From positions 59,842,970 through 59,906,969 of the forward strand of contig NC_057925.1 in the NCBI RefSeq assembly GCF_018873765.1: 64,000 nt of DNA, given 5' to 3'. Source of the stretch: Telopea speciosissima (Eukaryota; Streptophyta; Magnoliopsida; Proteales; Proteaceae). Both the position numbers and the translations under genes were made by a program. Positions 35,641 to 59,060 of this stretch are shown piece after piece (the first letter of the stretch is position 1; every line of letters starts with the position of its first letter). The notes beneath the pieces are model-generated. The model saw only the letters and a program-made list of their open reading frames with translations. It had not been told where the DNA came from and made no database searches.

Positions 35641-35782
35641 AAAAAGGGCATACCCAGTGCACAACACTTCCCCCACTGCAGGATCTAGGATCAGAATGTA
35701 CACCTTACCCTCGTTTCGCAGAGAGATTGTTTCTTGATTCAAACCTGCAACCACTAGGTCGCAATGGAGCAACTTTACCATT
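35641..35782 (-). mobile_element. Au-type SINE remnant (SINE 3)
   Basis: On the minus strand it runs from AAAGTTGCTCCATTGCGACCTAG, with a B-box-like GGTTTGAATC, to GTGCACTGGGTATGCCCTTTTT. It has the same layout as SINE 1 and SINE 2 but is more diverged. ATTGTGATAC and ATTGTGAATAC on its two sides may be a decayed target duplication. Confidence 0.75.
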
Positions 35783-36409
35783 GTGAATACATGAAAATGG
35801 TTTGTTTTTTTTTTTTTTTGTTTTTGTTTTTTGGTAGAACATGCAAATGGTTTGAAAGCATGGACTTGTTGTCTGGCATGCATTGTCTTGTTTAACATTA
35901 TAACCATGGTTAAAGATTATAATCATAGTTATAGAGACATGGTATGCAAAATCTTGCTTTAAATACCATTCAAAAGGGTTGCTCCTAATCAGGGTTTTAG
36001 TAATCGCTCGATCGATATCGATACAATATCAATCTTAATCAGACCGTTTTGATACCCTTGGATTGGTATCGTATCGGTTAGGAATCAATATCAGTCTCTA
36101 TTGATACCAATTCGAATCGACCAATACGATGAATCCAATACCAATACCTTGAACCCTGCCAACGTACAGAGAGAGAGAGAGTATTTTCCATCAGTACATG
36201 CTAGAGGCATGAGGCATCTCTTACTATACTATAAAAAGAAACATCTGTTTTCAGAGACCATAGCCACTAATATTCATGCTCTTCTTGAGGGTTAGGATGG
36301 GGACTTGGATCATGACCCTGGGGATGGCTACATCTGAGACTATTCTCATTGGTACGGAAACTAGGATTTTATTTTTTGTGTAAAAAAAACTAAGAGGAGG
36401 TTGGAAGCA

Positions 36410-46510: not shown

Positions 46511-47162
46511 TAAATTATCTCTCAAAAGAAGGGTGTTTCTTAAGATGCCTGCTGAGTAAGTTCAAAACGACCGATGAACTTACAATCGTCCTATTTGTAA
46601 ATCAGGTTCAGAACTCCATATGAATTTGTTTCAATGTTATTGTTCAAAAATCTGATATCTTTCATGCCACATAAAATACAGAATTATTGGACCCTATTGA
46701 GAAGACACTTTTACCATCTGTTTTGGATAGGTTCCCAGTGGACAACATATCACAAATTATGCCCTTAAATGAGTTTGATCTTAAGAATTCTGTTCTAACA
46801 CCAAGAATTACAGTGCAGCCCAGATTATTTTAGTAAAAGAGCAACTAAAAAACAGGTGCCAAAATGATTCATCAACCGATTTATACAAAATAAAAATAAA
46901 AAACACATAACCAAGCATTACAAATCTCTACACTTGGAAGTGAAAAGCATTACAGTACTACAAAATCTCTACACTTAACCAAGCATGAATAAACAATTTG
47001 GAAATTAGAATTATACATAAACCTTTTCTTTGTCGACAGGCATTTTTATGCATTCAAAGGTGGTTCCACAAAAAAGCAGAACACCATTTACAGAATGTGC
47101 CCCGAGAAAGTATCAAGTTAAAGCTACAATTAACATATTACACTTCAGTGTCGTCCAATTTC

Positions 47163-47340
47163 AAAAAAAAAAAAAATAAAGGCGTACCCAATGCACGAGA
47201 CTCCCACCACTGCAGGGTCCTGGGAGGGTCATAATGCATGCAGCCTTACCTCCTTCACGGATAGGCTGTTTCCTGACTCAAACCCACAACCACTAGGTCA
47301 CAATGGAGTAACCTTACCATTACGCTGAGGTCTGCCCTCT
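47163..47340 (-). mobile_element. Au-type SINE inserted at the CDP-DAG synthase stop (SINE 1)
   Basis: On the minus strand it starts AGAGGGCAGACCTCAGCG. It has A-box-like AAGGTTACTCCATTGTGACC and B-box-like GGTTTGAGTC, then TAAGGCTGCATGCATTATGACC and GTGCATTGGGTACGCC, and it ends in a T-rich tail, as Au SINEs do. The 16-bp AGTGTCGTCCAATTTC flanks it exactly (47147-47162 and 47341-47356). The first two SINE bases complete the gene's stop codon. Confidence 0.93.
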
Positions 47341-50300
47341 AGTGTCGTCCAATTTCTCTATCCTGAAAAATATGCCCAAGCTTCGTATACAAAGCCAGTT
47401 GCTCCTCGAAAGTAAGGTTCCTCAATATCTACATCATGATAACAACAAAACCAACCCAATCACATGTCTTTACAATTCAAACCTGAAATGATGAACAGAC
47501 CAACACAAAGACAAGAAAAGGGGGGAAAAACCCTCACATCCATGCAAGCACATGCATGCACACACACAAGTATAACTCAAAGACAAGCATATTTCAGAGC
47601 AGCACTTCACCTGATCCAAGATCATCTCCACTGAATAGCTTTCATGCACAACAAATGACTGATGATAAATATATGCAAACACAGCCATCACCATCTACAC
47701 AAACACACTATTATTAGGAACAGCATAAACTTGCACATGTATGTGATATCAAATTATCAACATTCAATTTTTCAGTGAGGATGTCAAGAATACATGGTCA
47801 CACATGCACTACAATCCAAACCATCCATTCAAATAACTGCTAAACCATTGAATACAATTGTACATTGCTAGGAATCAGAGGCAAAGCCAAAGCCTACACT
47901 CAAACCTGGCCCAATTCACAGAAGACAATAATTCAGATTCAAGTTTTAGTCGAACTTTAGTTATCAGTGGATGCCAACGATACAGGCTAGGCACTAGCTT
48001 ATCTTTGTCAAATGCCCAGATCCATCTATCTTTCAAATGTCAATTTCCAATTCGATGCTTGCCCAAAGAATGCTGGTCTATGTGATTTACTCTCTCTCCA
48101 CTGGGTTAAGCTTGAATTAAAATTTAGTTTTCAGTGGATGTAAACAAATACAGGCTAGGCACTAGATTATCTTTGTCAAATGCCCAGATCCATCTATCTT
48201 TCAAATGTCAATTTCCAAATCGATGCTTTCGCAAAGAAGGCTTGTCTGGATGCTCCTCAAGCCTAACCAGCCTCTACAACCAGAAGAAGCCACACTGATT
48301 TACTCTCCCTCCACTGGGTTAAGCTTGAATTAAAATTTGATGTTGAACAGAGTCTGCTGATAGTGTGCGACTTAAGCCACCAAATCTATAGATAAAACAT
48401 TAAAAGGAAAAGAAAAAATCTTCTGGAGAAAGTAAGTCATAGAATTTTACGTAGAAAGCCTTAGTAATGTATGCTGCAAATGATATTTGAAGAAATGGAT
48501 TACATAAATGAAAGCATGAGAATGGAAGAGAAGCTGGCTAGAATTGTGATTTCAAGCAGTGCCAGGTTAAACAAACTAAAAGAAATAAAAAATGTTACTG
48601 AAAGTTTTACATAAAGTTCCTAGTGGAAAAGAAAGATTTGAATTAATGGACCCCGTTAATGAAAGAATGGGAAAGGATGGAGGTAGGCTGGCAATTAGGA
48701 TTTGAAGAGGTGGCTTGGCGATTAGAGTTTGGAGCGATAGCTTGACAATCCTCCTTGCTGTTTAGGAGAGTAAGGTCTTGACTGACCTAATTTCTGTTTT
48801 CAGCCAGGTTATGTCATCTGGTCCTACCTGTGTTTTTTCAGGCTGGCTTTTTTTTGGGGGGTTGGAGGTGTGATGTGTCTAAAATTTTTCAAATAAGATA
48901 GAGATGTACAATATTTCCCTGTACAGGAGAGAGCTACACAAAATAAATATTGTCTGCAGGCCCAAAATTTCCTAAAACTTGACTCATGTCACAACGTGTG
49001 ATTGCCCCCAAACAAAAACTCCTTCCCAAGTCCCAACTCCATCTCTAGCCAAAGAATTTGCTAAAAGAGTTGGTGCTCCTCAACATCCATTAGAGCAAAA
49101 TGTTCCTATCATAATATAGGGCTCTAGTTTTTATAATTAAATGGGAAAGCCACCATGAAAGTTCCACCTCAGAAGCCATCCACTAAATCACCAAGCTTAG
49201 TCCACTGCCATAATCAGGTGTGGCCACTAGTGAGCTGCATAAATCAATAAACCTTGGACAACTACAAATCCAAGGGCATGCTAAGGTTACATTGTTTGGC
49301 CAACCCCAATCTCACCCATTCTCATCCATACCCTATTGATCTTATGACCTGATGCCATAGGGACTCCTATTCACCTGGGATTTTCTATAAGCATTACGCC
49401 ACCAATGCAACATTTCTTCCCGAAGAATTGTCAATACCCAACCCTTTGTTCTGTATGGTCTAACAATCTCCCATTTCACCAAATGGTCACTCCTCTCTTG
49501 AGAAGACTCTCCATAAAAAAGTTCCCTCGGAGTCTGTTCAGTCTCTTGCAGACTCACATACCTTGGCTGGAGCCTTAAAAAGGCTCAATTGTTAAATCTA
49601 TCAGATCCAATCTAGTCCCAGCCGAGATGTAATTCTTTCCCCAACCTTCTATGAACCTTTGCAATTAAAAGCTCCTAAAATGACTCTGCTTTCTGGTTTC
49701 TCCATGCTGGAGACCCAAATATTGAAATGCCCACAACTTCACACAATGCGAAAAAACCAATCCATATCCACATCAATCACATGAATATCTGCAATTCTAA
49801 TCTTCCCCAAATGAAAAAATATTTTCTCTGTGAGTCAATTCAGCAGAGTTGACAAGCCAAAAGACTCAAATCAGAGAGTCAAAGGGTAATTCTCAGGTGG
49901 TGATCTGATCAGGAACCAGATCAGTTAAATAATGCTTATGATGCCTGATAACTAGTAACAAAACCAAAAAAGGAGTAGAAGCAAATACATACGACATAAG
50001 AGTATTGTTTCAATTTTTTAGCAGTGCACCTGGCAATCCATTCTGTCAGTAATCCCACCATGTCCCGGAATGCTATGACCAAAATCCTGCAATAATTTTC
50101 AGGGAAGGGTGGTCAACAAGCAAAAAATTTAAATTTAACATGCATTCAAAGTGCCATCTAAATTCAACTGAACAATCAAATGAGGAAATACCTTGATTTT
50201 GAAAGCTCTCTTAAAACCACTCGCAAAAAATCCTCCAAAAGGTGCTATGATAGATGCGAATAGACCAAGAGCTAGAGCATGATATTGCACTGGCAAGATT

Positions 50301-53300
50301 GATACCTCTTTCCATGGAAACTGCAAGTTTAATTTTTATTAGATGAAAAATTGTCTGCTCATGGTTTAATTTAGTTGACAATAACTCCTAAAGCTTCATG
50401 TGTTGTTATGGCACAACACTTTCATCAATATCATTATGCATGGCAAATAACTTAAGAGATGCAAACGTATTTCATTTCAGTCTTTAAATTTAATTTTCTA
50501 TATTCTGGGCAGAAACTGTATATTCAGGATTTTGGTTATTGTAGTTTCATATATAGTTTGGTTCAAATCAGGCCTTTTCTTGCTAGGATGGATACTAGAC
50601 AAATTTATTAAAGAGAGGAGAGAAGAAAGAGAAAAGGAAAATTTGACAACAGTATAGGCAACCAAAATAAAATTCTTTCGATCCCCAAAAGTTGGTTTAC
50701 AATGAATATTAAGAAAAAAGAAAAAAGAAAAAGAGTCCTAATAGAAAGTACTAAAACAAACTCTTCTAAAACTAGGAAACAACTCAATCAAATCTCCTGC
50801 ATATATCCAACTCTATAATAAAAATAAATAAAGTTCAAATTATAGAATTAACCCCAAATAGCTAAATAAATCCCTAAAAAGGCCGTACCCAGTGCACAAG
50901 GCTCCCGGGTTTAGCAGGGTTTGGGGAGGGTCGAATGTACGCAGCCATACCCCTGTTTCCAGAGAGGCTGTTTCCAGGACTTGAACCCGTGACCAAGCGT
51001 TCAGCAAGTGACCACTTGATCAATGCGCCAAGCACGACCTTCAGCTAAATAAATCCCTACCACCCCTTATTAGACCAAAATCCTGGTTGGGTTCAGTTTC
51101 GTCTTGGTCTGGGTTTCCAGATCGAGTCACGCCGGTCCAGCCACGATAATGCTACTGCATCATGCTCCCAATGACATACCATTCTTTGATATCCTCTGGC
51201 TGAGGTCCCAGATCCCAAAGCAACACACAAGGCAAACCTTAAGGCAGTTCATCAGGTCCTTGACTTCCACACCACCTTCCCTCACCATTTGGATACCATT
51301 TGAGTAGAAAACCTTCCTACACCCTGTTCAATTAAATTTAATACATACTTGTAAAAAGTGGTCTCAGCCGCAGCCAGCACAGCACTTCTCCAATCCACAC
51401 CCTGCCTCTGCCATACTTAAACACCTTCTCAAATCCCCATTCCCCCTAACTATTCCCACAACTACTCAGGTCCTGAGAACTGTTGGACGCAGCTTGATTT
51501 CCCACCCTATAACAAACCATACTTTTGGAACTACAATAGCAAGCATATTACCAAAGCCAGCATGAAATGATATTTTATGGAGAAACAATAGGGGAAATCC
51601 CTAATACACAAAGAGCCATAGCTGTCATGGCGCCAAGGTGAGCCCAAGCAGTGGCCACCTTGTCACCATGGCACCTAGGGGAGCCTAGCAACTAAGACGT
51701 GCATATACCAAGGGGTTTTAGGCGTAAAATACAAATTTCTTCTCTTTAAGATGTAATTTTGAGGGGGGTTCATATGAAAAATAAAATTTTATTTCTTTTA
51801 CTTGTAAATATGAGTGGCAATATATAAAATAAAAGAATATCTTCTTTAAAGTTATAATTTTAACAAATAAAACCCAAAAGAGGTGGTCTTCTTCTTTCTC
51901 CTCTTCCTTGTCCTTCTCCTTCTTCTACCGTGGTTGGTGACAGTGGATGATGGAGGCAGTGGCTGCTGCACCTTTTCCAGTGGTAGTGCAGCTACAACTA
52001 CTTCTCCCCATTGGTCTTCTTTTTTTGGGTGAATAAATAATTCACTACTAAAAACCCGTAAGTGGGGGAGGGGGGGAATACACAGGGGAAAAGAGGGGGG
52101 AAGGAACAAAGACGCAAGCCCTAGGGAGAAGGGACAGGAGACTGAAGAAGAGAGACAGATAAGCCCCAGGAGACAACAATACACCTGTTCCCTGGGGAAT
52201 CAATAAGAGAACTATAGGGGAATACGTGGAGCTTGGAGCTTGGAGCTGACATCAAAATAGATGGCTTTCCAAATCATCTCAAGAGAGCAGGAGTCGAAGG
52301 TCTATCCACGAAGATTCCGCTCCATCCAAATGTGGGAGATAACAGCACCAAACACAAGCTTTCCTACAGTATCATATATAGTATTGCCAGAGAAGGACAT
52401 ATCCAACCAAAGCCACTCCCTTGAGAAGGGTAAGGGTCTTCTTCTACCAGGCCAGCAGGATTCAAGGTCTTTTTTCCAAATACAAGAGACAAAGGGGCAA
52501 GAGAAGAAAAGGTGATCAATGTCCTCAAGACCGTTCCAACATAGGATCCAGGAGGGAGAAACAGAAAGCTGCCGATGGAGGAGAAAGGATTGGGTGTGGA
52601 GCAGTGGGTGAAGGCTCTCCAGACTGTAAAACTATGGCGGGGGATATGAACTTTAAACCAAACAAGGTTGCACCAAGGGACTGTGAGGGCTTGAAGTCTA
52701 ACAAAGTCCCAAGCTGAGTGGGAGCTAAAAAGGCCCAAAGGGGAGGGGACCCAGGAGACCCATTCCGAAGACGAAGGGTTGGGGGGAGGGGGAGAGAGAG
52801 AGGCCCAAAGCTGGGAGAGACTAGGGGGGAGGGGGAGGGAGGGGACCAGGAACCATGGGAGATGATGGCGGAAACCGGGGCATGTTTAGGAATACCAGAG
52901 GAGTACACCGAGCGGGCACCAAAAGTGGAAAAGAGGACTCAGCAATCTTGGAAATGGTAGCTCTAAGGGCTAAGGGACGGAGGAGGATTTTGCGCCAGAC
53001 CCAAGCCAAGAGGAGTCTGAAGGCTGGTGGACAGTCCAAATGGTCTCTTTTTTGAGGAGGTAGGAATAAACCCAATTGACCCAAATAGAGTCTCGCTTAG
53101 AGGAGATTTTCCAAAGCAGTTTGAGAATACCAGCCAAATTTGAATCGTGGATTCTGCACAAACCCAGGCAACCCTCAGCTTTGGGGAGGCAGGTAGCAGC
53201 CCAGCTAAGGGGATGGAGGAATTCAGGAGATTGTTTTCCTTTCAAGAGGAAATCGCAGAAATGGGATTCCAGGGCTTTGATGGTGGATTTGGGAAGCCCA

Positions 53301-55690
53301 TAGATGCCGCACCGGATAGATGTAGGAGGATTGGAGAACTGATCTAATGAACTCAACCCTCCCAGCATAGGAAAGAAGTTTACCCTTCCAGAGTTGGAGC
53401 CTTTTACAAATTAATCCCCATTGGTCTTCTTATTCTTCCACCCTTTGCCCTTCTCTTCTCCTTTCCTCCATTTCCCCTGCTCCTCCCCCCCCCCCCCTTT
53501 TTCTCTCCTTTTTTCTATGTTTCTGGGACGTAGGAACCTCGACAACTTGGTGGCCGTAGTGATGCAGTCAAGACTGACCAATTGGGCTTAGGCAGGCCAG
53601 ATTTTGAGCCATAAATGGGGTTTTATAGGCCTTGTTTACTTGTTTATGGATTATTTACTGTATTGAGCCTTAATTAGTAGAAGTGAAGCTTGTACACAGG
53701 ATTAGTAGTTAAGCGTTTGCATTAAATCAGGATACTTATTAACTAGATAGAGTTTTGTTTTGAGTCTACTTCATTAAGTCAGTGTTTGAGAGTGAATAGG
53801 AGTCCTTTAATGTCAATTATAGAAATTTAAAAGGTTATATATATGTATACACCTCCCATCAATTGGACATGATTTGAGTTAAAAAAAACATTTTGACTTT
53901 TCTTAAGAGTTTTGGAGCTGTTGAACTGTGCATATTGGATTGGTCATTGGTATCTCAGGTCCGATCTCCCACTCGCTCTTACCAGGTGTGAGTTTTACTC
54001 ATTCTTCTTCTTTGTTCTACTCATTTTCCAATTCTGGTATTTTCCTCTAATTCTTCTACTTCTCCCTCATCTCTTCTAATATTCTTCTCTTCCATACAGA
54101 ATATTAATTTCAGAATCCTACCAATTTCTTGCTAATTATTAAACCTGATCTGTGAATCCGATATTTCCGACTTACTAGAATAATTCTAGATTTCTTAAAA
54201 CAGATCATCAAACCCAGCTATATTTTACTCAGTTCTTGCTTGTTGCTTGAATTTCACTAGCTGATTTTACTTATTTAACGATCTTTGATTCTCAAGGTTC
54301 TTCTATCAATTGATAGATCTGTTAAACCCTTACACTCAAGCTTGTTCTGATATCTCCGGCCAAAGTTATACTTTTTTCTGATCTATATACTCCCTGTTTC
54401 TGCGATCCTGTCTGTACTAGTCTCTTGTTGGGTTTTCCTGGTTCGGATTTAATCTGCATTATCTAGGATCTAGGAAACCACCTAGGCAACTATGCAATGC
54501 ATAGACCATACAGTAAGAAACTAGAAAAGTACATCAAGTATGATATTTTAAATCTTTACAGAATAATAATCAAGTTCTGCTGTCAATAAGACAGCCCCAA
54601 TACAAAAATAATATATTCTGTTATGACTTATGAGGCCAACTAATACAGTAAAATGTCTTCAGTATCATGAAAAGAAAATAGTTGTACAACAATTTTAATT
54701 ATTTCTTTCAGCTTTCCACTAAATATTCAATAAGTTTGAAAGTCAAAGTAGGCAATACCTAGGAACAACTAAGTATTGCTTGCTTACTCACCCATTGAGG
54801 AACCCAAACAGGCAAAAAATAAAATGCTGGTTTGAAGAGTGGATCAGGATCACAGTGAAGCCAACCAGTTGATAAATCCTGCACAATTTTTTCCATGGAA
54901 GTGGTTAATAAACACCTGCCCGAGATTGCAAGGTTAAGAACACAGAAATGCATTATCTATTCAAAAAGTTACCTTCTTTGGACATGTTAGCCACTGAAAA
55001 CGCCCCATGATATTCGCTAACTTCATAAGACATGAATTATCAATTCCTGTTAGCATGCATCTAATTTTTATAAACACCAAAAGTAAAGAACTCTGAAGCC
55101 TCATAAAAAATACAAGTTCATTCAAGAGATGAATATTAAGCATGCCCAAAGCATGTACTGTAAATAAATAAATAACTTAACAAATAACAGAGAATAGGTT
55201 TAAATGTTTGAATGGCAACCAAGCAGACAATTACAAAGCCCATTTCAAATAAAAAGGCACAGTGAGAAAGTGGTGTATCTTAGGAACCCAAATGATCATC
55301 TCAGTTAAATCCCCAATAACTACTCAAACACAGGCCACAGAGAGAGCAAAGTATGGGACTGTGCCTCTCAATTTCTCATACACAGACCGGTTCCTTGGGT
55401 GAAAATTTCAAAGTGACACTGATTCAAGTTAAAATAAGAGGGAATCAGAAATATTTCCCAAGAACAGTTAGCAATCAATGACTCTCAGAAGCAAGCTTTG
55501 AAGTCGTCAGGGAAAAGAATACATCATGCTCACCATGAAGGCAGAGATGATAGTTGTAACAGATGCTCCAATAAAACCCTCCCAAGTTTTCTTCGGAGAC
55601 AACTTGATTAAAGGTGTTCTACCGAAGAAAAAACCAAAAAAGTAGGCAGCAATATCATTGATTACAATAAGTGATGCTGGAAGAAGAAAC
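47339..55690 (-). CDS. Phosphatidate cytidylyltransferase (CDP-diacylglycerol synthase), ER type, 3' part
   Basis: Seven coding exons: 55534-55690, 54973-55020, 54792-54878, 50192-50320, 50030-50086, 47611-47694, 47339-47428. Phases agree; 216 complete codons precede TAG. The enzyme makes CDP-diacylglycerol from CTP and phosphatidate in the ER membrane, for PI, PG and cardiolipin synthesis. Visible: membrane segments ([35 protein letters not shown]), [46 protein letters not shown]. The family signature is complete across one junction ([10 protein letters not shown] then [17 protein letters not shown]), so the catalytic Asp residues are present. The C-terminus is [15 protein letters not shown]...IGRH. 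Plant homologues have about 420 residues. The N-terminal half was not found up to 64000. The present TAG replaces an ancestral TGA (see SINE 1). Confidence 0.94.
47930..48337. repeat. Tandem duplication (about 0.2 kb) in a CDP-DAG synthase intron
   Basis: CAGGCTAGGCACTAG, TCAAATGCCCAGATCCATC and CACTGGGTTAAGCTTGAATT each occur twice, about 0.2 kb apart. The rest of this intron (47695-50029) is AT-rich with no gene. Confidence 0.75.
50877..51042 (-). mobile_element. Au-type SINE in a CDP-DAG synthase intron (SINE 2)
   Basis: On the minus strand it reads GAAGGTCGTGCTTGGCGCATTG, then B-box-like GGTTCAAGTCC, GGTATGGCTGCGTACATTC, and ends GTGCACTGGGTACGGCC plus T residues. The 17-bp AGCTAAATAAATCCCTA flanks it on both sides (50860-50876 and 51043-51059), a perfect target-site duplication that implies a fairly recent insertion. 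Confidence 0.93.
52022..53414 (-). mobile_element. 5'-truncated LINE (L1-like), 3' end of ORF2
   Basis: Minus-strand frames encode the C-terminal part of a non-LTR retrotransposon polyprotein: [35 protein letters not shown] and [13 protein letters not shown], then the zf-RVT-like [20 protein letters not shown]. Frameshifts separate these pieces. A 17-bp TCCCCATTGGTCTTCTT lies on both sides (52005-52021 and 53415-53431), and a short T run (the A tail on the minus strand) follows the left copy. It is a target-primed insertion truncated at the 5' end, inside the synthase's 4.5-kb intron. Confidence 0.92.
53560..54480 (+). mobile_element. LTR-like sequence
   Basis: It starts TGATGCAGTCAAGACTGACC and, like the blocks at 56769 and 61366, reads ATTGGGCTTAGGC, then T/C-rich leader-like sequence (TTCTTCTACTTCTCCCTC). 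No gag-pol follows it. I infer a degraded solo LTR; its limits are uncertain. Confidence 0.4.
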
Positions 55691-55850
55691 CTGCATGGGT
55701 ATCTAGAGTTTATCAGGAAAGAAAATGTTAAGAAAATATCACCTATATTAATATACTTGTCAAGTGTAACATCAAGAATAACTAAAAGGATTAAACACAA
55801 CATCTGAAGAAATAAGAACCAATGGAAATGTACTTACATGAAAATAATAA

Positions 55851-56768
55851 TGCCACTGCAATTCTAAAACCAAAAAGGTACCAAGAGGAGAATCCAGCCT
55901 TGTAGACCTTTCGGTAAAATCTGATGAATGGCAAGATATTACAATAAATCCTTCAATGCGGTGTGAATTGTTGTTGTGTTGATACACATCGTTGTAGCCC
56001 TTACTTAACAGCTCGAGCTTTTGGGATAAGTGGTTGAAACATGGAATCAAAACCAGGAGGTCGGGTGTTTGATCCCTGGTAAGTGCGATGGGTTTGTGTT
56101 ATGTGCCGTTGTGCCCTTTACGTTGTGATGTAGATCAAAGTTCCATGTGTAGCCGCAAGAGAAAGTCTCAAAACCAGCCCGGTGTAGTTGTGGGATTCAA
56201 CAGCTGTGAGAGGCAGCCTGGTCTGATGATGTGACAGATTTTTTTTGGTTCGATGTAGCATCTCTATCAAACTCGTGGATGATTTTTTTTTCCCCAAGCA
56301 GAGGAGAAATGCCACTGCAATTCTAAAACCAAAAAGGTACCAAGAGGAGAATCCAGCCTTGTAGACCTTTCGGTAAAATCTGATGAATGGCAAGATATTA
56401 CAATAAATCCTTCAATGCGGTGTGAATTGTTGTTGTGTTGATACACATCGTTGTAGCCCTTACTTAACAGCTCGAGCTTTTGGGATAAGTGGTTGTAACA
56501 TGGAATCAAAACCAGGAGGTCGGGTGTTTGATCCCTGGTAAGTGCGATGGGTTTGTGTTATGTGCCGTTGTGCCCTTTACGTTGTGATGTAGATCAAAGT
56601 TCCATGTGTAGCCGCAAGAGAAAGTCTCAAAACCAGCCCGGTGTAGTTGTGGGATTCAACAGCTGTGAGAGGCAGCCTGGTCTGATGATGTGACAGATTT
56701 TTTTTGGTTCGATGTAGCATCTCTATCAAACCCGTGGATGATTTTTTTTTCCCCAAGCAGAGGAGAAT
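55851..56768. repeat. Recent 459-bp tandem duplication
   Basis: Unit 1 (55851-56309) and unit 2 (56310-56768) are nearly identical, with differences such as GGTTGAAACATGG/GGTTGTAACATGG and AACTCGTGG/AACCCGTGG. Each contains AACAGCTCGAGCTTTTGGGA, which recurs at 57512 and looks retroelement-derived. On the minus strand each encodes FYRKVYKAGFSSWYLFGFRI. In unit 1 this runs into a strong donor-like CATGTAAGT. I do not recognise the peptide. Confidence 0.85.
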
Positions 56769-57559: not shown

Positions 57560-59060
57560 CTAAGGATTCCATTTCTGACATACCACCAAACATACAACAA
57601 CTCAACCTTATCCTAACTAAATAGGGTCGGCTACATGGATCCATGCAAAGACAAAAATTAAACATAGTAGTAAAAAAAGCCCAACAACATCAACAAAAAC
57701 TCAGCAATAACCCACCAATGGGGTCGGCTACATGGATCATTGCCCTCCAATCAGCTTTATTCGAGGCCATACTTGAGACAAGGCCCAAACTATGCATGTC
57801 TTTCCTCACTTCTCCTAAGGTCCTTTTAGGCCTGCCCCTAGCTCTTTTAGATCCTTCAATCTGAATCAATCACTCCTTCGCACTGGTGCATCCCAAGGCC
57901 TCCGTTGAACATAACCATACCACCTCAAACAACTCTCTCATAGCTTCTCCTGAATAGGGGCTAGTCCCAACTCAACTCTAATATGGTCATTCCTTACTTT
58001 ATCCTTCCTAGTCTTGCCACACATTCATCTCAACATCCTCATCTCTACCATACTTAGTTTATCTACGTGCCACTTCTAAACTGCCCAACATTCCGCACCA
58101 TACGTCATAGCCGGTCGTATGACAGTCTTATAAAATTTTCCTTTGAGCTTTAAAGGAATATGACGAACACACAACACGCCGGTTTCACCTCTCCACTTCA
58201 TCCATCTTATTTTAATTCTTTGGGAAACATCATCCTCTATATCGCCTTTTTTATTTATGAATTACGATAGATCCCAGATATCTAAATAATCACTTTAAGG
58301 TATCTCTTTATTACCAATACTGACCACCTCATTAACCGTCAGAGTATGGCTAAAGTTGCACACCATGTACTCTGTCTTTGTTCTACTAATCTTAAGACTT
58401 TTTTATCCAAAGTAGATCTCCACAACTCCAACTTGACATTAATCCCTGCTTTTGTCTCATCCACCAACACAATATCATCAACAAAAAGCATAGACCAAGG
58501 AATCTCATCTTGTATGTCTCTAGTTAAATCATCCATGGTAAGCGCAAACAGATAAAAGCTTAAGGTTGATCCTTGATGTAGCCCAAACATAATTGGGAAC
58601 TAACTACTTTGACCCCTACAGTTCTTACGCTAGTCACCATGCCATCATACATGTTTTTAATTATGTCCATGTATTTACATGGAACCCTACTCTTCTCGAG
58701 TATATGCTAGATTAGCTCTCTAGGGACTCTATCATATGCTTTTTTAGGTCAATAAGACCACATGGAGATCCTTCTTGCCCCCTCTATACCTTTCCATGAG
58801 TCTCCTAAGTAAGAATATAACTTCCATTGAGGATCTACCTGGCATAAAGCCAAATTGGTCCTCCGAAATAGTAGTATTCTTTCTCAGCTGGGTATCAATA
58901 ACCCTCTACCATAACTTCATCATATGGTTCATTAGCTTTATGCCTCTATAATTACTAAAGCTCTAAATATCACCTTTATTTTTGTAAATTGAGACCACAA
59001 TGCTTCTCCTCCATTCATCCGACATTTTCTTTGTACTAAAAATATTGTTAAACAGTTCGG
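57560..59060 (-). mobile_element. LINE remnant with reverse transcriptase
   Basis: The minus-strand frame 58590-58339 reads FGLHQGSTLSFYLFALTMDDLTRDIQDE, then MLFVDDIVLVDETKAGINVKLELW, the palm motif of plant LINE reverse transcriptases with VDD in place of the usual ADD. Flanking sequence continues the polyprotein with stops and frameshifts. The part near 57720 (GGGGTCGGCTACATGG, TCCTCACTTCTCCTAAGG) is the segment also found at 39268-39600. Confidence 0.85.

Follow-up and report, generated by a model that had tools for sequence, protein, structure and literature searches.

SINEs of the Au and Au-like type reportedly occur in seed plants (Yasui 2001 and Fawcett 2006, as cited in PMC3747384). 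Au SINEs have a tRNA-type 5′ part, a length of about 180 bp, a T-ended 3′ tail, and target-site duplications, all of which recur in the element described here. Their tail is given as (T)2-5 in PMC3747384, whereas the tail at our locus comprises 18 T-rich bases.

Like our locus, the wheat insertions presented in the accessible portion of PMC5787218 place an Au SINE in or beside a protein-coding gene. That portion reports 35 of 40 copies as intronic in one table, mentions one last-exon case as well as cases in coding sequence, and describes retention or exonization along with coding sequences that became shorter or were changed. Unlike our locus, none of the cases in that portion is described as one in which the insertion restored a stop at an unchanged residue. 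Among the papers covered, which lie mostly outside subscription journals, we likewise recognized none that describes such a SINE-derived or otherwise new stop codon. One "new stop codon," in the accessible part of PMC2875222, is due to replication slippage, unlike the SINE case, and a search for SINE tail strings in the text of papers returned no SINE paper and one unrelated match.

Here, we describe a locus in Telopea speciosissima, within a 64,000-nucleotide (nt) stretch of DNA (the window). The evidence supports the insertion of a SINE after the first base of a stop codon, with TAG completed by the element's own first bases.

The window carries part of an intact, predicted CDP-diacylglycerol synthase gene

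The gene model was built by extending the locus past the window and rests on reading frame, splice signals, and a paralog. The gene is intact, with 424 amino acids encoded in 11 exons, 4 of which lie beyond the window. Its spliced coding sequence of 1275 nt consists of 424 codons plus TAG, with no internal stop and with GT-AG at 10 of 10 introns. The exons are as follows.

C10:59907412-59912222, past the right end of the window: exons 1 to 4 (splice model)
55534..55690, minus strand: exon 5 (splice model)
54973..55020, minus strand: exon 6 (splice model)
54792..54878, minus strand: exon 7 (splice model)
50192..50320, minus strand: exon 8 (splice model)
50030..50086, minus strand: exon 9 (splice model)
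47611..47694, minus strand: exon 10 (GT-AG, in-frame splice model)
47339..47428, minus strand: terminal exon, 11 of 11, 90 nt including the stop (AG before the exon, in frame with exons 1 to 10, homologue in the paralog)

Read from 47428 down to 47339, the terminal exon encodes 29 residues and then TAG. The product is a predicted CDP-diacylglycerol (CDP-DAG) synthase (phosphatidate cytidylyltransferase), an enzyme of plant phospholipid synthesis: the Pfam family CTP_transf_1 (PF01148) matches residues 51 to 381 over profile positions 2 to 264 of 264 (E = 1.5e-77), and there are weak matches to the solved phosphatidate cytidylyltransferases 4q2g (E = 1e-10) and 4q2e (E = 4.1e-10). By eye, a 27-residue stretch of the spliced protein fits the signature of the CDP-DAG synthase family, S-x-[LIVMF]-K-R-x4-K-D-x-[GSA]-x2-[LIF]-P-G-H-G-G-x-x-D-[RK]-x-D, and the same stretch aligns with 4q2g.

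A SINE lies within the stop codon

By direct reading and a frame check, the last codons of the gene on the minus strand are GGA CGA CAC TAG. The initial annotation had taken the T of this stop from a duplication and the AG from a SINE, and sequence, frame, and coordinates all bear this out. The features around the junction, in the direction of transcription, are as follows.

47341..47356, minus strand: 5′ copy of the 16-bp target-site duplication, GAAATTGGACGACACT; coding, its last base being the T of the stop
47339..47341, minus strand: present stop codon TAG, with T from the target site and AG from the SINE (reading and frame check)
47163..47340, minus strand: Au-type SINE of 178 bp in sense orientation, starting AGAGGGC and with a T-rich tail at its end
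47147..47162, minus strand: 3′ copy of the target-site duplication, GAAATTGGACGACACT again; now noncoding
47145..47147, minus strand: relic of the presumed former stop TGA, with the T in the duplication and the G and A single-copy
46940..47146, minus strand: presumed original 3′ untranslated region (UTR), with similarity to the paralog reaching about 46940 (empty-site alignment)

The two copies of GAAATTGGACGACACT, 47341-47356 and 47147-47162, are identical at 16 of 16 positions, which confirms the proposed 16-bp duplication and its coordinates. The SINE between them opens with AGAGGGCAGACC. The 3′ copy is followed by GAAGTG, and the joined flanks read CAC TGA. Where the insertion had been placed in the last codon of the gene, this is correct for the stop codon and incorrect for the last amino acid codon. 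A search of the assembly for a SINE-less allele of this same locus, in which the joined-flank pattern was allowed 3 mismatches at most, found none; its sole match was the 3′ half of the pattern at the window locus, with 3 mismatches.

The element belongs to a multicopy, probably Au-type family

The SINE is present in many copies. With the window copy as the query, 40 matches (itself included) were scored of 3244 first-look candidates, and with another copy as the query, 40 were scored of 5042. The window SINE is 80 to 87% identical to the 39 other genomic copies listed and 87.4% identical to the majority consensus of the family. For comparisons among copies, we fetched 68 loci, merged 7 repeat fetches to give 61, and added the window copy for a sample of 62, which was picked by similarity to the two queries and is not random. 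A duplication at the same place and by the same criterion (duplication score of at least 12) is found in 33 of the 62, window copy included; the other 29 failed the duplication test or had an alignment that stopped short of the 5′ end. An earlier, looser run on 40 copies had given weak, low-scoring duplications in many of them.

The majority consensus aligns end to end with an approximate Au sequence, with a score of 155 against a best of 45 in 500 single-base shuffles; the inner part of the window family differs from this approximate sequence by several gaps. A- and B-box-like stretches, as would suit a putative internal Pol III promoter, can be picked out by eye in the tRNA-type 5′ part, the latter with a C-to-T change relative to the consensus. 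At least two T's stand between the body and the duplication in 27 of the 33 copies with a duplication, and one or none in the remaining 6. Both the duplications and a tail ending in T agree with the Au-like SINEs listed in PMC3747384, and the family name Au, though provisional, appears well supported.

Outside CpG sites, the window SINE diverges from the consensus at 10 of 132 sites (7.6%), which ranks it 61 of 62 in a sample with a median of 5.3%; 2 of these 10 differences are common to at least a tenth of the other copies, and a separate global alignment gave 11 differences in 134. Ten further differences fall at CpG sites, as would be expected if the copy had been methylated. The window SINE is thus among the more diverged of the sampled copies, which leaves time for single-base changes by the junction.

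A paralog provides an empty site

The initial annotation had suggested looking in related species for a site without the SINE; a paralog on the same chromosome, C10 near 5.95-5.97 Mb, serves as an empty site. Its terminal exon lacks a SINE, and its alignment with the joined flanks is gap-free across the insertion point, extending 88 nt on the upstream side and 37 nt on the downstream side, which argues that the SINE arrived after gene and paralog had separated. The 11 exons of the paralog are collinear with those of the window gene and have AG and GT at the corresponding positions. Ten of the 11 agree in length; in exon 7 the splice donor, also a GT, is shifted 12 nt upstream without loss of frame. 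Its exon ends were set by alignment to the window gene and not independently, and its own frame is open for 417 codons. Over 411 codons, leaving out the final ten of exon 7 and the four that close the reading frame, stop included, Ka is 0.040 and Ks is 0.289 (Ka/Ks of about 0.14), and on these values both genes look constrained.

At the relic codon, the paralog reads CAC TGC. Its frame ends three codons earlier, at a TGA that sits where the window gene has GGA, and its C terminus is therefore three residues shorter. This earlier stop and the shifted exon 7 donor suggest a C-terminal tail that is free to drift. The proposal that the ancestral stop was TGA thus stands in part: the G of the relic is common to the paralog and the A is not, and since both bases lie outside the duplication and are single-copy, they could have changed since the insertion, making TGA likely and not forced. 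A third copy of the C-terminal exon that might polarize the stop codon was not found in the genome among matches at E values up to 10; the five matches were two to the window gene, two to the paralog, and one weak (E = 2.07). When the genome was searched for the protein family, 15 places matched, and the 7 on C1, C6, and C737 were left unused.

Alternative readings of the junction

The A of TAG could have come from the element or from the target. Of the 32 other copies with a duplication, 17 are informative in that their 3′ copy rules out an A from the target, and the extra base before GAGG in these is A in 8, G in 2, and absent in 7. The remaining 15 have an A in the 3′ copy and are uninformative (14 with A on both sides, 1 with G on the 5′ side). 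Because a leading A is a normal 5′ end in this family, the element itself most likely supplied the A of TAG. One could instead suppose a duplication of 17 bp ending in G, so that the insertion made a fresh TGG that a later G-to-A change turned into TAG. The base after the 3′ duplication copy is indeed G, and 7 of the 17 informative copies start straight at GAGG; this course, however, requires an extra mutation and an interval of extended protein, and an extra 5′ A is common in the family (8 of 17); we consider it highly improbable. The codon may also have been TGC, as in the paralog, when the SINE arrived. The protein would then have run on to the next in-frame stop, a TAA that is the fifth codon after TGC, and the SINE would have truncated it slightly, with C changing to A later in what had become untranslated DNA. 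The third base of the relic is single-copy and outside the duplication, and the age of the SINE would have allowed a substitution afterward. Such a history nevertheless needs one particular C-to-A transversion after the insertion that happens to make a stop, and, since the paralog stops at an upstream TGA of its own, the TGC there may simply lie in former 3′ UTR that is free of constraint. Rough branch lengths would give a former TGC around a fifth of the probability and suggest that the codon was probably TGA already at insertion; overall, we regard a former TGC as unlikely.

A different kind of doubt concerns the gene itself, in that the exon might not be the real 3′ end of an mRNA, as in an alternative last exon or a pseudogene, and the stop would then be of no consequence. 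Frame, splice signals, and the paralog are the whole basis of the gene model; against this, the paralog keeps the same terminal exon together with its AG, the coding sequence is intact, and Ka/Ks is low, and so we hold a wrong annotation to be quite improbable. A chance repeat, a processed pseudogene, and a tandem duplication were rejected as explanations, given that the gene has introns and that the element is multicopy with family-typical ends.

Proposed course of the insertion and its consequences

Taking the retroposition mechanism from established knowledge of SINEs, we propose that target-primed reverse transcription placed a copy of an Au-type SINE in the 3′ end of the intact CDP-DAG synthase gene, in the orientation of the gene and after the split from the paralog. 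Integration would have taken place right behind the stop codon's T. With (A)GAGGG as its 5′ end, the element would have converted T/GA to T/AG by its first two bases (the slash marks the insertion point), so that translation would still end after the same histidine. The SINE would now be followed by the second duplication copy and then by GA and the original 3′ UTR. We regard this account as a whole as very likely. That judgment covers the entire insertion account, from which a former TGC and a 17-bp duplication differ by one base each and with which they overlap. Counted against the account is the perfect match of the duplication copies, which are slightly better preserved than the divergence of the SINE suggests.

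The protein end appears unchanged by the insertion, and the proposal that protein length was kept is true relative to the reconstructed empty allele of the window gene; the C terminus before the insertion was reconstructed from the window gene alone, as the paralog does not share the TGA. Similarity to the paralog runs about 205 nt past the old stop and, by eye, fades soon after GTAGTACTGTAATGC, as expected of a shared 3′ UTR. The SINE is probably part of the 3′ UTR of the mature mRNA; for an mRNA ending at about 46940, this UTR, once some 200 nt long, would presumably have gained 194 nt. Beyond the stop, the next one in frame is now the 28th codon, where it had been the 5th, so any readthrough would now translate 27 more codons as opposed to 4 before. 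With respect to selection, the insertion was presumably nearly neutral. The locus would be a clean example of a retroposon that entered the most delicate triplet of a gene, left the protein unchanged, and replaced the start of the 3′ UTR.

Stop codon hits by Au-type ends are predicted to restore a stop in most cases

The initial annotation regarded the neutrality of the insertion for the protein as the unusual part, a view that an enumeration of possible cuts does not sustain. Combining three stop codons, two interior cuts, and three ends (sense AGAGG, sense GAGGG, and an antisense A-run), a stop codon is restored in 17 of 18 cases, the exception being TG/GAGGG. The antisense case requires at least two T's in the tail, as is true of 27 of the 33 copies with a duplication. 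Since nearly all cuts restore a stop, keeping the protein end is nearly automatic once a SINE cuts the stop codon, and the rare part is the landing. The general point is one of arithmetic: the ends of the Au-type SINE family are compatible with stop codons.

Taking the 5042 first-look candidates (unverified copies) in a genome of 823 Mb with 30,000 genes assumed, random insertion would lead one to expect about 0.37 copies within any stop codon per genome and, for sense copies immediately behind a stop codon's initial T, about 0.09. The true rate may exceed the random figure because Au SINEs in wheat favor genes, with 1268 of 1886 sites in or close to predicted genes according to the accessible part of PMC5787218. 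Such cases would be expected across many plant genomes. It is a tentative and unlikely idea that Au-type ends (sense (A)GAGGG, antisense AA...) cause stop codon hits to be systematically tolerated, with a detectable excess, in plant genomes, of SINEs that start exactly at a stop codon; if true, genes would have a quiet route for changing both the identity of the stop codon and the 3′ UTR. The accident described here is neat and of an expected kind, involving no new mechanism, and it adds one more example to the known SINE insertions in genes.

Other repeats in the window and in the introns of the gene

Two further SINE copies lie on the minus strand of the window, at 35646-35783 (78.6% identical to the consensus) and at 50881-50995 (81.0%). 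Both are more diverged than the copy at the stop codon, and the second is located in intron 7 of the CDP-DAG synthase gene. Intron 4 of this gene contains a 300-bp direct repeat (55849-56148 and 56308-56607), 100% identical and with starts 459 bp apart, which is either a very recent tandem duplication or an effect of the assembly. Reverse-transcriptase-like fragments such as MCGKTRKDKVRNDHIRVELGLAPIQEKL were noted by eye in translations of intron 4, at about 57770-59040. The paralog region (C10:5.95-5.98 Mb) also has reverse-transcriptase-like fragments, in different introns, and such fragments are probably old LINE pieces.
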